Part shown: one piece after another, positions 3,682-58,856 of the stretch
Numbering within the stretch: position 1 is the first letter of the stretch
How the letters are laid out: each line of letters begins with the position of its first letter
Assembly (NCBI RefSeq): GCF_000002865.3
Contig: NW_001865040.1
Span: 940,954 to 1,004,953 of the forward strand
Source: Monosiga brevicollis MX1
Lineage: Eukaryota; Opisthokonta; Choanoflagellata; Craspedida; Salpingoecidae
Direction: 5' to 3'
DNA: 64,000 nucleotides
The notes under the pieces: model-generated
What the model saw: the letters and a program-made list of their open reading frames with translations, nothing else
What the model was told of the DNA's origin: nothing
Databases searched by the model: none
Position numbers and translations under genes: made by a program

Positions 3682-6481
3682 ATGGCGCGACGACCTCCGA
3701 CGTGTGGGCCTTCAAGCCTGTGGAGACTCTTTGCAGTGTTGTGGCTGCTAGCGTCGTTTGCGTTTGCTGCCGAAGTTGTCGTTCACAATGGCAACTTAGC
3801 CCTCGTGGTGGAGAGCTCCAAGAAAGTTGTGATTGCCGAGCCCAGCGAGAGGGAGGCGGACCTTTTTACCGATGAAGATGCGCGGCTTCTGACACAGGTG
3901 AGCGATTGTTCACCCTTGGCCCCGCTGCTTGAGCACGCTGCTTGGAAGCTGCTGTCAAAACAACTTATGCTTGCCTCCGTCCCGTGCTCGCCACCCTGGC
4001 GCCATGACATAGGGTGAGGTTCGGAGCTTGTTGGCCACCATGGAGGCCGCCTTTGCCGAGCGGCTAGCACAAATGCAGGCCCAGCTCAATGCCAAGCTCA
4101 ACGTCACCGAACTTGCGGCCACCGTGGATGCCATGCTCGTAGACACAGCCAATGCCTCGGCCCTGCGCACCCGCCTGCAGGGCGCCGAGACCCTCGCCGC
4201 TGATAACAGCCAGCGTGCTTTTGCAGCTGAGGAGCGCCTCACCGCCCTCGAGCAAGCCAATAACACCCTGGCTACGGTCGTGGAGTCGTTGGCTTCAACC
4301 AAGGCCGATGCCACGGACGTCCGCACTGACGATCAGATCCGGGCGATCATGACAGCCATGGTCAACAACGAACCCGCCAACAACGCCGTGCGTAACGCCT
4401 TGGATGCCAAGGTGGATGCAGTTACCCAATACGCTGACGAGGACGCGCGTGACCTCCTCAACGACATTGTCAACAACCCGGAGGGGGACAACAACGCCCT
4501 GCGTCTGGTGCTGGATGATTTGGCGACGCGCCTGGGCGCGGCAGAAGCGAGCCTGGGCACGGACTGCGGTGCTGCCTGCGCGGCCGGTACATACGAGGCG
4601 ACGGCATGCAATGTCGGGGCTGGGACCGCACGCGTGTGCTCAGCATGCGGTACCGGATCCTTTTCCTACGGTGGATCCGTTCCCAGCTGCACCAACTGCG
4701 AGTCGTGCGCTGCAGACGATTATGAGGTGCACGGCTGCACGGCTTCCTCGGATCGTGTCTGTGCGCGCTGCACCACGTGCGTGCCTGGGCGCACCTACGA
4801 GACGACGGCATGTACGACGTCGACGAACCGTGTCTGCTCAAGCTGCGCAACGTGTGCCAGCAACGAGTACATTGCCAGCGAATGCACGGTGAGCAGCGAG
4901 CGTGTGTGCAACGCGTGCACAACCGCATGCGCAGCCAACGAGTGGATGGCTGAGCCGTGCAAGAGTGATAGCAACGCCGTGTGCCAGACCTGCACGGTCT
5001 GTGAGGCTGGATTCTACGAGGCTCGGGCCTGCTCAGCAACCGCGGACACACTGTGCCTACGATGCACCGACTGCGGAGAGGATGAGGTGCTGACGGCTTG
5101 TAGTGCTTCAACGGACACGGTCTGCCTCGCTCCCAACTGGGGCCTCAACGTCGACCTCAACGCCTCATTGGTCGTGGAAAACCAAATCGAGGTGCGCTTC
5201 CCCATCAGTGGCTTTGATCTGGAAACATCGAAACTGCACAGCACCTTTGTGCGTGCTGGCACCATATTCGATGGCACGACCATGACAGTGACAGATGCAG
5301 GCTTCTATTTTTTGGCCTACAACATTCGAATCGACCACATGTCGGAGGAGTGGGTACATTGCAACTACATCTTCGACGGGGTGAATAATCCCACGGTCAA
5401 TGGTATGAGCTTGGTGCGTGGCACAATGAATTATGAGCAGTGGACCTTCTCCAATGCCGGAATCGTCAAGCGGGCTGCTGGCTCCAACATGACCATGATT
5501 GCGCGTGCGGTTTCTGACACCAACTTTACCGTCCATGAAGATTCTGGTATCTCAGCGTATCGCGTTGAACCCACAGAGGGTCTTTATGCCTTGTTGTTAG
5601 AAGATGTGGCGGTGACATCCGCAAATACTTGGTACAAAGTCAACGGCTGGACTGCTGAAAAGCCAGAGAGTTTGACCAACTACCTCTTTGGCGGTACGCT
5701 CGAGGACTCTGCATACGTGGTCAAGGAAAGTGGCATTTTCCTCCTCGGCGCCACTGTTCGCTTGGACCAACCAGGTAATGCGGCAGCCAACTCTCTCGAC
5801 TATCATCGCCTTGTCATTGCCATCAATGACCAGCCGGAAATTGCTTCGCCACTGCATATTGTGCAAGGCATGCCCTTTCCCGATGACTATGTCGTCAATT
5901 ACGTTGGTGGTTTGGCCTGGCTCAACGCCGGGGATCGCGTCCAGCCCTATGGCTTTAACAACGTGGCGTTTGATTTCCGCTACCGACCACAGTCACATTT
6001 CACGGTGGCCAGACTCGAAACCAGCTACGCTTTTAGTGCCACCATGACGAACCATCAGCACGTGACGACGACTGACTTTTTTGAAGTGACGGCCTGGACT
6101 GTCACGCCCGCCACTGCTGCCTTTTGCTTCAATAAGGGCGGTGCATTTGATGTGTCTACCGGACGCTTTACTGCGCGTGTGGCTGGGTATTACTATGTTG
6201 CAGCCAACATTCGCTTGGATGATGTCGACGCAGCCACCCAGTTGATGGTCGTCATCAAATCCAGCGCTGACGAGACATTCACAGATGCGGGCCTGACTGC
6301 CGTGCGTTCTCCTTATGGGGGAGCCAATCCGCAATACCAGAGCTTATCGCCGGTGGGTGTTTTGCACCTGCGTAAAGGCGATTACGTCTCGATTCACGTC
6401 AGAGTGACTGGCTTTACCGACTCATATATTGTCCAAAGCGAAAGTGGTTTCAGTGTCGCCCTCCTCGACGGCCCCAAGTGA
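3682..6481 (+). CDS. Secreted TNFR-type cysteine-repeat protein with three C1q/TNF-like domains
   Basis: Exons 3682-3897 and 4013-6481 (phase 0) give 894 residues. The chosen ATG opens a typical signal peptide (LWRLFAVLWLLASFAFA). Residues about 73-255 are Ala/Asp/Gln-rich and probably coiled coil. Residues about 256-444 carry a run of TNF-receptor-type cysteine repeats built on a CxxC...Y...C...C unit (for example CARCTTCVPGRTYETTAC). The remaining 450 residues form three similar jelly-roll-like modules, each ending a strand with a motif such as GFYFLAYNIRID, GIFLLGATVRLD or GYYYVAANIRLD, as in C1q/TNF-type domains. No C-terminal membrane helix or GPI-like tail is visible, so the product is probably secreted or in the extracellular matrix. 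TNFR-type repeats are known from choanoflagellate gene models. The role is unknown. The domain reading is firm for the cysteine repeats and moderate for C1q. Confidence 0.8.
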
Positions 6482-53055: not shown

Positions 53056-55308
53056 CTAACCTGTCCAAGAAGACAGTGCGGCCACAACAAACGCCACGGG
53101 CAGCACGAGATTGTCAATCTGAGTGGTCGAGAGCTCAAGTCCAGCCACTGTCACGCAGGCAACCAGAGCCCGATGCCAAGGCACACCGTCTATTAGGCCA
53201 CCCCAGTTCTACACCACAAAAAGCAAGGCGAGCACACAGGTCGTGACGGAACAATGCAGTGCATGCAGCAACGCAGTAGCCCGCGCTCAGGGCCAGGCAC
53301 ATACCAAGAGCCACAAGGCAACCAGCTGCGAAACAACGCAAGCCAAAAAACCTTCAAGGCTTTTCTCTACCACTGGGAGGCGCCAGCGACCATATCTATC
53401 CAGAGAAGTTCAACAATGTGGGTTTTGCGGCACTCCAAAGCACACACAAATTTTGAAAGTTGCGCGTTGCAGAACAAGTCCGCAGCCAAGCAGGGGCACA
53501 GCAGGGTAGGCGAGCTGTACCGACCAACAACGTACCGTCGCCCAACGAGCGATGCAAAGGTATCACCGATGCCCACGGCCAGCACACCACCATAGGCCGC
53601 CCAAAAACGAGCGCGCGGAAGGCACCAGAATGGAGCCAGAGTGCCAAGCAGTAGATACAGTGGCGTGACGGTCAGGAATCCCTGATCGCGCGCATCGCGC
53701 AGCTGGGCCTGCACCAATTCAACTAAGCAGCCCGAGAATAAGGGGGTGGTGGTGAGTTACCAGAGCCAGACTAGAACACCCGAAGGCCAAAGACGGGCGC
53801 AGGAGACCACTCAAAGGCATACCCCATGTCGCAACTGGCTCGATACCGCAAGCTCGCACAAGTTCCAGGGAGACATAAAGCGCAACCGCACCAGCTCCCG
53901 TCACGATGAAGACATCAGAGTGCCACGCCATCAACTAAAGGCAATCACATCAAGAGTTAACCAAAGTCACACAGCATGAGCGCCGGACACCAGGTCCGAG
54001 TGGAGGCACGAGCCAGAGTCAAAGCGTACAGGAGCTAGTAGAAGAGCTGCGGCCACGTGATAAACTTTGCGAAGCTCAATCTGCCGGAGCCCACTGCTGG
54101 CGTGAAAGCTCAAGAACGTGGCCAAGCCTACTGCAACTCCAGTGAAGAGCAGGGCCATGGCAAATATCGGCCACTCACGCAGGACCAACCGGAGCAGGTA
54201 CAACAGTAGATCCTGCACACATGACACACGCGCTATGAGAGGGCGAGCCAATGATCGACGACGGTGAGAATCAAGAGCATGCAGATGAGCTGAGAGCAAA
54301 CCTGCTGCATCAGACTCGTGGCCACCACATAGCCAAGAGCGGCATGACCAGCAACCAGACCCGAGAGGACAGTCGGCAGCGTCACCGGGGGCAGCCAACG
54401 GCGTGCAGCCCCCGCACAAAAGAGCAAGGCCATGATAACCCCAAGGACAGCCTGTTAGAACCAGCGAATCACTCGGCCACCGTGAGCAGAGGCATTGCAT
54501 AGGAAGAGCAAGCATGCCCCGTCCATGGATCAGCACCATCTCACCAGTAGCACTGCCCAGGGAGCGGCCACAGGCTCAGTCGACTGGGCGGCCTGAGCCA
54601 AAGCCAAGAGGGCAGCCTGCCAGCCTAACCACGACAACAAGCACCGATCCGTAAGACATGGCGTGCTCTGGACTGAAGCGCGAATAAACAACCGTGGGCT
54701 GCTGGTGCGCTCGGCGCACCTGTTGTCAGAAGGAAACTTTCACCGCGCGTGAATGATGCTGGGGCACACCATCGCAGCAGGGCAGCAAGGACCACGGCTA
54801 TAGCACTGTTTACAAGCGAGCTCGCACTGGGAACATGGTACGCATAGACTGGTAGTAAAAGGAGCCAGGCGCAGGCGATCTGCGGCTCCCAGACACGCCA
54901 TGGAAGTCCGAGAAGCAGAAGCGTGACAACGCTGTCTGGAGCGAGCGAGCGCCACGCTGGCGGTGCCACGTGGCTCCAAAGCGGCTCTACAAGCAGAGTC
55001 GAGAGAAGGCCAGCCCCTGCCAACGGTCGTTCCCAGGATGACCTCTGTGCCGGCTCCCAGAAAGCACCTCGTTCCAAGAGGATGGCGGCACTTACTACAA
55101 CCCCCATCAAAGTGAGGACAGGCCGTTTCAGTGAGGCCTGTGACGTTGATATAAAGCGCGAGAAATCTACCAGATGTTGCATACCTAAAGTGCCAGATAG
55201 CACCACGCCGATCCAGTTGGCTGGACCTTGCACAGTGCTCAGGATGGCCCAGGTGGCCAAACCTTCCAGGCTCGCCCTCAACCCGAACACGGGTCGAGGT
55301 GACATCAT
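53056..55308 (-). CDS. DOLK: Dolichol kinase
   Basis: Eight exons: 55308-54720, 54672-54545, 54451-54302, 54212-53991, 53934-53761, 53708-53536, 53395-53305, 53208-53056, giving 559 residues (human 538). DOLK (yeast Sec59) makes dolichyl phosphate with CTP in the ER membrane for N-glycosylation. The product is highly hydrophobic with a dozen or so membrane segments. Family landmarks are in the second half: LRKVYHVAA (the RKxxH block), VALYVSLELVRACGIE, RDQGFLTVTPLYLLLG, GGVLAVGIGDTFASLVG (the CTP-binding GxGD loop), RRYGRWRLPVVEKSLEG, and TTQIDNLVLP close to the C-terminus. The first half has no motif but the right hydrophobic pattern. The gene is in tandem with the FYVE-kinesin gene and converges on PEX19. 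Confidence 0.92.
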
Positions 55309-55675
55309 GTCGTCTCGTGTGCAAACAGCAGTCAAACGTCTGACAACAACAAGAACCCCGATTTGCCTTTGAAATTTTGGTCGTGTTGACGATGAGTGGT
55401 GGCTCTGTGTGCGTTTGACGCCTTTTTGTTTTCTTTGGAAGGGTCATGCGCATTCGGTTGATGGTGGAATGAATGATCGACAAAAGGAATCAAATACATG
55501 CGGATGTATCAAAAAGCCAACGCTCTGGGCACCTGTCCCGAAGAGCGCACAAGCACGACAAAAAAAACAAAACAAACAACGACAAACCAAAAAGAGGACA
55601 GCCAAGGTGCCATGGTCAAGATGGTGGTCGAACATTCAATAGTTCGTCGGTGCTCCCTAAGGGCGACACCTCTAT
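55309..55675. other. Short spacer between two minus-strand genes (FYVE-kinesin and DOLK)
   Basis: 367 bases containing the DOLK promoter and the kinesin 3' UTR. An A-rich stretch lies at about 55560-55590. No gene. Confidence 0.5.
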
Positions 55676-58600
55676 TTACTCATAAGCAATAAAAGTGGCC
55701 GAGGCCATATCAGAGGCTTGTTGAGCCTGTTCCATGCCCTCCCCCAATGAAGCCAAATCCCGCTCTACAATGCTCAAAAAGGCGTGACACTCGGCACAGG
55801 CGCGGACCGGCCGCTTGGAAGAGCCCGTGGTCACCCGATCGGCACAGCAGTTGCCGCAAAAGGCCTGTCCGCAGATTCGACAATGATGGCGCCGGTTAGT
55901 CAGCGTGGTGAAGGTGGCGCTACACGCTTGACAGGTTGCTGACGCTGCATCCCATTTGGTCAAAAATTTGCTGCGGAAAAATTCGAGCTCTTGGCGCCAC
56001 TTGGCCATGAGCTCCTCCAGCTCCTTATCCTTCTCTGCCATGGCCTTTTTCAATGCTAGAATTTGCTCATCGCGTTCATCCAGTTCTTGCTTGCGGCGCG
56101 CGAGTGTGGCTTCGTAGGTATGTCGCGCTTGAGCAAGCGTGTTTTGCTGATTTTCCAGACTAGTTCGCAGACGAAGCGCATCGGCTTCAGCTTGGGCTTG
56201 GGTTTCTGCCAAGCGGGCCTCCAGGCGAGCCACCTGCTCCTCAAGATGCTTCACCTGAACCTCCATGGTGCGCTGGAGCGTGGACATGTCACCCTCCCGA
56301 GCCGCTAGCTCCGTGTCGTGCTGAAACTCGAGCTGTTGAATGCGCGCGCGTTGCTGCAATGTTGTTTCCTCGAGAACGGTGGCCCGTGCTGTTGCTCGGG
56401 CCAGCTCTGTTTCAACCTCCTGCAAACGAGAAACGAGGTGTGCTTGTTCATCTGCGCTTTTACCAGCTGAAGCTGTGAGCTGCTCCTGCAAAAGTCCAAG
56501 TTGTCGCTCCAAGTCAGCGGCGTTCTTGCGCTGTTGCTCCAGATGAGCATCGCGATCAGCAATCTGCTTGCGCAGATCATCAAGCTGAGACGTAAAAGCG
56601 GTGCCATCATCCGTGGCCTGGGCTCGGGCCTGCTCCAGCGCGCCACGCAGTTCAGTTATTTCCTTCTCCAGCTCCGCAGCATTTGCAAGCGCCGCCTCAC
56701 GCTCTGCCTGAGCAAATTTTAAATCCGCCAGTACGTCGCTTTCAGACGGGATGGAAATGCCTTCCATGGTCACCGTCACCAACTTCGGGCGCTCCGTCTG
56801 CGTGCCAAAGTGAGTCTGATCCACCACGGGACTGAGTTGCAGAGTTCAAGCGACAGCGTGAGTCCCACAGACGGGCAAGGATCAATACAGATAAAGTTTG
56901 GGCTGCACCATCAATGTCTCGCATAATCACAGCAAGACGAACAACGCTATATTATATTTCAACAGAAAACGGCAAAGACTGCACGCAACAGTTGTCCGTA
57001 CCGCTGTCCACGACTGCGTTTGAGAGCCGCCTCCAGCCTGTGGCGTGGTCGGAACCCGACCAACAATGCCAAGGTGAATTGTGTGGGGAGAAAGATACGA
57101 AAAAAGGCAGATGAGGTGAGAGTCATGCATCATCTGACGACTCGCAGCCCACATCGGCTACGAACGACATGATACTGACCTTGCCACCTCAGCTCGAAGA
57201 GAGTTCATTTCTTCAGATGAGCGGACCACGTTCACGACAGGGCGGGTGACAATGCGCTTGGCCCGGTCAGCTGTCGTTCAGTTGAGCAGTGACGCGGTGC
57301 ATAGTCCAAGGAAGTAATAGAAAGAGCGGAGACACGGAGAGGGAGACGGAGGTGTTGGAAGTGAGGGCTCTGAAGCAGGTGGAGATGATCATCTCTTGGA
57401 AGCACGAGTTTGAACAGACATACCATATTGCAAAGTGCTGAAGGTTTCGCGAAGGGATGAAGCGGTTGGGCTTACGGTGCCAATCATGTAAGTTTTTGCG
57501 TTGCCTCCCAAGGAGTCCTTGAGCAACCACGTCAGCTGAGAGTCACGGTATGGCACGTGCTCCTGAATTGGTGGGTCAACAAGAGGAAGAGCGGGAAGGC
57601 ATGAGGAGTTGGCGATACGAATGGTGGCCACAGTGCAGAAGTAAAATATTGTGATGCCAAGACTGGCTCAACTCATGATGACTTTGTGGGCCAACATCGG
57701 AAGAGCGCACTGACCTTGTTCGATTTTTTTGTGGAGGCCGAAGAGGACGAGGCAGAGGAAGTCGGCTTTGCATTCTCAGCCAAAGAGCTGAGGCAACGAC
57801 CAAAGAAGACGAGGGACTTGTTGGTGATGCCGCCTTCCTGGATGCGAGCCTCGTTGAGGGAGTCTGTTGCGCTGATGCGCTCAAAGCCAGCCAAGTCGAC
57901 GAGATTGATGCGGCTAGTAGTTTGAACTTCCAAGCCGTTTTTGACGGTAAACTGGCGTAAGACGAGAGTGAAGATGGCATGACCGCGGTTGGAACTGTCG
58001 TTCAGATCCACGCTAGCTGTTCGACGGTGTTGCTGGCCCCGAAACACGAGATGCCGTATATTCTCTGCAGTACTAGCGTCATGCTGTGATAGATTCTCCA
58101 CAAAAGGCCCCTCTGTCGGATGCTCGCGGATTCGCAGCTGTGGCCGCTCCTCGGCGGGGGAGTGCAGGAGATCGCGCACTTTCTCATTGTAAAGCTCGAG
58201 GTAGGAGGCGGTCAGAGAAATCTCTCGGCCTTCCAATCGTGCACGCTCAATCAAGGCTTCGCAAACCGTGATAATCAGCCCTGGCTCCTGCTCTGTGCCG
58301 ACCATGGTGAAGGTCTTGCCCGAGCCAATCTGACCAAAAGCAAAAAGGCAAACGTCTAGAAGCGAGCATAACAGCAATGCCATGGCAAGGGGAGGCAAGC
58401 CTTAAGAACTGCAGCCCCAAGGAAGTTACTCAAAGAGGCCAGAGGGGGAAAGAGGAACATACTGAAGCCATGAAGGGCATCTTCAACGATGCTGGGGCCT
58501 ACGGCATCAAAGCACCGGGTTTGATTACCCGGATCAGCCTCTTCATCAACAAAGGCATTATTATAGCGGTACGTCTTCACGTCCTGAACCCCCGACGTGT

Positions 58601-58856
58601 TCTGTTTGCATCAGAGGCCGGCAGGTGACCACAGCGAAAGGTGAGTGCAAGGCGGCTTGTGCCGGGTCGTGTGACTTGTTGTGCCAACCATGTGGGTACT
58701 TGGGTGTTTGCATGGCCATGCAGGACGCCGCACCGTGTATGCGACACAGAGTCGGTCCTCGAGGGCCTGAATGGCAACATCCTCGTCGTCATTGTCATGG
58801 GCATTGGGAGGACGCACACGTACAGCCACGTGAACATTGCCTCGCAAGTCACTCAT
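55676..58856 (-). CDS. Kinesin with C-terminal coiled coil and FYVE domain
   Basis: Seven exons: 58856-58734, 58583-58463, 58355-57715, 57562-57424, 57270-57180, 57037-57002, 56831-55676, giving 768 residues. The motor starts at once ([11 protein letters not shown]) and shows [18 protein letters not shown] (P-loop, Ile instead of the usual Thr), [28 protein letters not shown] at switch I (usual SSRSH altered), [14 protein letters not shown] at switch II (DLAGSE altered), [17 protein letters not shown] and [16 protein letters not shown] neck and about 250 residues of coiled coil follow. The last 90 residues are a FYVE finger with WDA, RRHHCR and RACAEC, the PI3P-binding set. The six junctions from motor to FYVE all keep phase, and no stop or start lies between. 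Predicted role: motor on PI3P endosomes, analogous to PX-bearing KIF16B. Confidence 0.88.

Follow-up and report, generated by a model that had tools for sequence, protein, structure and literature searches.

A kinesin-3 with its own C-terminal FYVE finger and an altered nucleotide pocket in the choanoflagellate Monosiga brevicollis

The window analysed here, a stretch of 64,000 nucleotides of the Monosiga brevicollis MX1 genome (contig NW_001865040.1), encodes a kinesin that carries a FYVE zinc finger of its own. Seven predicted exons on the minus strand (58856-55676) are spliced into a single protein of 768 residues, in which a kinesin motor is followed by a coiled coil and a C-terminal FYVE domain (Table 1). 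The account that we prefer, with modest confidence, is that of a homodimeric kinesin-3 from the KIF16B lineage that would have lost its FHA domain and replaced PX by FYVE, would grip PI3P, and would act as a slow or tethering motor with a possible LC8 clamp.

All six introns are of the GT-AG type and 107-170 bases long, the frame is preserved across every join, and, going upstream from the start codon, the frame reaches a stop without a further ATG. The exon coordinates proposed in an earlier note on this DNA, including the two junctions it singled out (57180-57037 and 57002-56831) and the phase at the joins, all proved correct on splicing. Pfam recognizes both a kinesin domain (residues 34-348, 6.4e-89; PF00225, 298.6 bits against a cut-off of 29.3) and a FYVE domain (2.3e-14; PF01363, 53.7 bits against a cut-off of 27.8), and these matches, together with the heptad pattern of the tail and a paralogue of the same layout, back the note's claim that motor, coiled coil and FYVE finger belong to one kinesin. 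None of the four open reading frames neighbouring the gene has a Pfam match. Just downstream of it lies a 272-codon open frame (window 54628-55443, minus strand) with no Pfam match at 0.001.

Table 1. Exons and sequence features of the FYVE kinesin gene (window positions)
Feature	Position	Strand	Remark
Exon 1	58734..58856	-	start codon and first motor strand
Exon 2 (motor)	58463..58583	-	GTTCAG/.../GTATGT, phase kept
Exon 3	57715..58355	-	motor core: P-loop, switch I, switch II
Exon 4	57424..57562	-	end of loop 12, HVPYRDS, end of motor core
Exon 5	57180..57270	-	ADRAKRI and neck
Exon 6	57002..57037	-	neck exon, 36 bases
Exon 7	55676..56831	-	linker, coiled coil, FYVE, stop
P-loop GQIGSGKT, residues 89-96	58312..58335	-	
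Switch I NDSSNRGH, residues 200-207	57979..58002	-	usual NxxSSRSH; Asn204 in place of the Mg2+-coordinating serine
Switch II DLAGFE, residues 235-240	57880..57897	-	usual DLAGSE
GTQTE, residues 393-397, candidate LC8/DYNLL-type linker site	56792..56806	-	GTQTD in L043
Coiled coil (predicted), residues 425-668	55979..56710	-	heptad analysis and AlphaFold2 helix
FYVE zinc finger, residues 678-734	55781..55951	-	Pfam

A Sec1-family exon of the assembly (L041) agrees at 47 of 47 aligned residues with PDB 2xhe (UNC18), which PMC3693963 gives as M. brevicollis Munc18, so that by its own sequence the genome belongs to this species or a very close strain; of two further Sec1-family exons, L039 matched Vps45 and L042 had no match. 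Profile scans of the M. brevicollis assembly (39.5 Mb, 57 contigs) returned at least 26 FYVE matches and at least 131 kinesin exon matches, the latter grouped by position into 39 loci. At least two of these loci, as judged by eye, are followed on the same strand by a FYVE match at a distance of up to 10 kb, namely the window gene and a locus at C56:2872-2875k (L043), and this count is a lower bound because the scans proceed exon by exon and score only the best candidates. Spliced, L043 encodes 863 residues in 12 exons with its parts in the same order (Pfam: Kinesin 2.5e-84, FYVE 8e-14), and the two motors are identical at 158 of 347 positions. Three of the six introns of the window gene, those after exons 2, 4 and 5, match L043 in position and phase; the tail introns of the two genes differ. 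Both proteins also carry GTQT[E/D] in the linker and EFFRxKFLxxW before the FYVE finger. The L043 protein starts with ~70 additional residues (L043:1443-1652), a stretch with abundant Ala, Glu and Gln to which the window gene has no counterpart, and downstream of the L043 gene lies a long AC-type dinucleotide repeat (~5955-6110) that translates as (TH)n whichever forward frame is used. Among 59 pattern matches in viral contigs, no relative was confirmed.

By its sequence, the window motor is a kinesin-3. Among the best 60 of 158 PDB matches its closest relatives are KIF13B (255.7 bits), KIF14 (254) and KIF1A (231.1), all of which we take to be kinesin-3 members, followed at lower scores by 7wrg (labelled "Kinesin-like protein", presumably KLP-6; 202.5) and by the best chain labelled kinesin-2 (188). 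In a tree of 38 M. brevicollis motors plus KIF13B, which included no KIF16B motor, the window gene and L043 form a pair (UFBoot 100) that is joined by a further M. brevicollis kinesin, k11 (C54:342k), at 99, and the enclosing clade (UFBoot 100) also contains KIF13B and the kinesins k07 and k34, which have FHA matches just downstream. An FHA domain after the neck is typical of kinesin-3. The tail of the window kinesin has no FHA match at E up to 10, and its C-terminus has no PX domain, the FYVE finger occupying that place.

The k11 gene (L070, G000:C54:334800-344700, minus strand) encodes a motor, an FHA domain, a coiled coil and a PX domain. Pfam finds FHA (2e-5) and PX (2.8e-12) in the spliced protein; the PX domain is matched best by 2v14 (labelled C20ORF23, which we take to be KIF16B) and 6ee0 (KIF16B), and the FHA stretch matches KIF1B and KIF1A chains. 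A genome-wide PX scan had found no match within 10 kb of the kinesin matches, as judged by eye, and the view that the genome holds no PX kinesin was overturned by splicing k11, whose PX domain had escaped the scan because introns split it and it becomes visible only in the spliced sequence. Both FYVE motors have k11 as their nearest relative among the kinesins of this genome, with 50.4% and 51.2% identity versus 41.9% to each other. The simplest account of these data, favoured though not proven, would be a KIF16B-type ancestor of which a copy lost FHA and swapped PX for FYVE.

Both FYVE kinesins are altered at the nucleotide pocket. Switch I reads NDSSNRGH in the window gene and HPTSHRGH in L043, and switch II reads DLAGFE and DMAGIE, which places Asn and His, respectively, at the Mg2+-holding serine of switch I, and Phe and Ile at the serine of switch II. 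The window motor thus does not match NxxSSR, the switch I form typical of active kinesins (NDSSNR lacks the second serine), and retains the DxxGxE pattern of switch II as well as the GxxxxGK[S/T] P-loop; L043 in addition lacks the switch I Asn (HPTSHR). At the other 37 kinesin loci of the genome, the second serine of switch I is Ser in 34, Thr in one (k32) and Asn in one (k10) of the 36 that are readable, and at the altered position of switch II, 36 of the 37 carry Ser and one (k23) Asn; some rows of this census carry intron spill at other positions, and switch I of k37 and switch II of k26 were checked separately. The P-loop Thr is Ile or Val in the FYVE kinesins and Thr in 31 of 36 readable others, a difference of little weight given that some rows enter introns. 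The segments NKSL and PYRDS, which presumably lie near the microtubule face, are retained in both FYVE kinesins. The one other readable kinesin with Asn at the Mg2+ position, k10 (L063, G000:C55:573500-579500, minus strand; NKWSNRAH), falls outside the kinesin-3 clade and has no FYVE match nearby. According to the accessible text of PMC5498027, this switch I serine coordinates the catalytic Mg2+, and the accessible part of PMC5076506 describes the switch I motif as strictly conserved within the alignment sample displayed there.

The FYVE finger of the window gene contains RRHHCRICG and eight cysteines in four pairs that align with the zinc ligands of EEA1, and that of L043 contains RPHHCRICG, RAC and likewise all eight cysteine ligands. 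WxxD and RVC are motifs of PI3P-binding FYVE fingers. The former reads WDAA in the window gene and WEPN in L043, and the latter is RAC in both, which leaves the earlier description of the finger as canonical valid for its basic motif and cysteines and too strong for its WxxD and RVC motifs. As judged from its sequence, the degenerate WxxD could weaken PI3P binding. The best matches among solved FYVE structures are 1hyi (3e-12) and 1joc (EEA1, 3.5e-12).

Between linker and finger, the predicted coiled coil contains no proline and five glycines. In its best register, the hydrophobic fraction at heptad positions a and d is 0.548, compared with 0.380 +/- 0.023 in shuffled sequences, and none of 500 shuffles reaches the observed value. 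A single-sequence AlphaFold2 model of the fragment encoded by 55676-56110 (mean pLDDT 66.4) contains a helix at about residues 628-674 (block pLDDT 76-91), and in the same model the FYVE part is unfolded (block pLDDT 45-68), with the helix continuing into it. In the linker, GTQTE matches the core motif [T/V/I]Q[T/V][D/E], flanked by coiled coil, and at the same position L043 reads RGTQTD. The accessible text of PMC3078936 gives [D/S]KX[T/V/I]Q[T/V][D/E] as the natural LC8 consensus and VSRGTQTE as the phage-selected one. By chance, a shuffled protein would contain the core motif 0.15-0.20 times, and further matches are ATQTE in the L043 motor (residue 197) and the only match of k11, which lies within its FHA stretch, so the candidate site rests on the linker position common to both copies. 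A Dynein_light gene of the LC8 family is present in the genome.

That the two ends of the window protein might be separate genes joined in error receives some encouragement from the shortness of exon 6 (just 36 bases) and from the FYVE part residing within one long exon with internal methionines. The frame is, however, preserved through all six GT-AG introns, and since L043 repeats the same layout we give this explanation hardly any credence: the order motor, linker, GTQT, coil, EFFR, FYVE is kept there despite different tail introns, and the intron after exon 5 agrees in position and phase. Harder to dismiss, albeit still improbable in our judgement, is the origin of the fusion from another kinesin-3 motor without any PX-bearing KIF16B ancestor, in which case the grouping with k11 would reflect the slow evolution of the latter. 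In the tree, no kinesin-3 of this genome has a shorter terminal branch than k11, the FYVE kinesin tail lacks FHA, and moving k11 to other kinesin-3s was not rejected by the AU test (p=0.106). Against such an origin, trees of 18 sequences unite k11 with both FYVE kinesins at UFBoot 97-98 whichever of three models is used, in line with the 99 of the larger tree, and with a single FYVE kinesin the support for its grouping with k11 is 96 and 86, the latter for the window gene when L043 is left out; the identity of both FYVE motors to k11 moreover exceeds that to every other M. brevicollis kinesin by 6-9 percentage points, and two motor introns, after exons 2 and 4, are common to the window gene and k11 as judged by eye. 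The earlier note had seen in the fusion an independent way of coupling a motor to early endosomes, and this needs to be revised: because the FYVE motors group with the KIF16B-type k11, with the reservation of the AU result, the FYVE kinesins and KIF16B appear to have a motor lineage in common, and the difference would lie in the lipid reader alone.

The same evidence on the nucleotide pocket can be read in two ways. The FYVE kinesins might be ordinary, fully active endosomal transporters, functional twins of KIF16B with PI3P-bound FYVE and fast plus-end motility, in which the switch changes are compensated. This would fit the retention of the Walker residues of the P-loop, of the switch I Asn and Arg (in the window gene), of the Asp, Gly and Glu of switch II and of the microtubule-facing segments, and Asn at the Mg2+ position may be tolerated, because k10 has it too. 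Yet both FYVE kinesins depart from the usual residue at the same two sites, which are rarely changed elsewhere in the genome, and L043 has also lost the switch I Asn. In Kif5A, according to the accessible text of PMC5498027, switch I change S203C reduces gliding about 30-fold (15.4 versus 486 nm/s), S202N, R204Q and R204W abolish it, and with S203C and S202N more motor stays on microtubules in the presence of ATP; these disease mutants belong to a kinesin-1, and the substitutions measured differ from the Asn and His found at the Mg2+ serine here. We consider a fully active transporter unlikely and favour, by analogy, FYVE kinesins that would be slow or tethering linkers between PI3P and microtubules, because both copies are changed at residues of the nucleotide pocket. 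Less probable again is a finger that does not read PI3P at all and serves for dimerization or protein binding: the degeneration of WxxD in both copies would agree with it, but both have kept RRHHCRICG or RPHHCRICG, RAC and the eight cysteine ligands, and the best solved matches, at ~3e-12, are EEA1-type chains.

The gene model, the domains, the paralogue, the substitutions, the LC8-family gene and the PX kinesin are read from the sequence, and from them we infer dimerization, PI3P binding, a slow motor, LC8 binding and the replacement of PX by FYVE. In a kinesin-3 of the KIF16B lineage, the FHA domain would have been lost and the C-terminal PX domain exchanged for FYVE. Because the coiled coil leads straight into the finger (EFFRxKFLxxW in both copies), a dimer would have two FYVE fingers, and these would grip PI3P membranes with avidity as the paired heads hold the microtubule. 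The outcome would probably be that endosomes move slowly or are simply held to microtubules, instead of being transported fast, because the Mg2+ serine is replaced, switch II carries Phe or Ile, and the microtubule-facing NKSL and PYRDS are kept. An LC8 dimer on GTQT[E/D] may furthermore clamp the kinesin dimer or connect it to dynein. More tentatively, the swap of PX for FYVE, a crippled ATP cycle and the LC8 clamp might together form a PI3P-triggered microtubule tether, maintained as two diverged copies beside an intact PX transporter, a combination about which we are rather doubtful.

If the preferred account is correct, one motor lineage would recognize a single endosomal lipid by means of two unrelated folds within the same cell, a natural case of this kind, and the interchangeability of PX and FYVE would become testable. 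The switch substitutions likewise raise the question of whether a kinesin can be retained for tethering and not for stepping. Because animals and choanoflagellates are sister groups, these results are also relevant to the evolutionary assembly of the endosomal motors of animals.

A search of the main text of openly accessible papers for the phrase "FYVE kinesin" gave no match. The publications that join Monosiga, FYVE and kinesin describe no FYVE kinesin in their accessible text, nor do the accessible parts of PMC1322226, PMC7706067, PMC13070254, PMC2375034, PMC8885694 and PMC10380299. A survey of FYVE and PX proteins from 2010, which also covered Monosiga, mentions kinesin once in its accessible text, in a table, under PX-associated domains (PMC2837644), and a kinesin survey covering 105 architectures in 45 eukaryotes does not name FYVE in the accessible main text, although its supplements may list one (PMC2867816).

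Among known systems, KIF16B/Klp98A shares with the FYVE kinesin a kinesin-3 motor, a long coiled coil and a C-terminal domain of the PI3P type, whereas the FYVE kinesin has FYVE in place of PX, no FHA domain, altered switches I and II, and GTQT[E/D] in its linker. EEA1 has a dimeric tail in which a coiled coil runs into a C-terminal FYVE finger. The likeness to EEA1-type proteins lies in this arrangement and in the best solved finger matches, and the differences in the N-terminal kinesin motor and the degenerate WxxD. A cytoskeletal motor with its own C-terminal FYVE domain is also described, in the accessible text of PMC2375034, for the class XXXIV myosins, which differ in the motor family and in having an IQ motif and ankyrin repeats. 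Finally, FYVE adaptors of the FYCO1 and RUFY type link the membranes of endosomes or lysosomes to microtubule motors, according to the accessible text of PMC10472876 and PMC8938451, but do so as separate proteins that are not fused to a motor.
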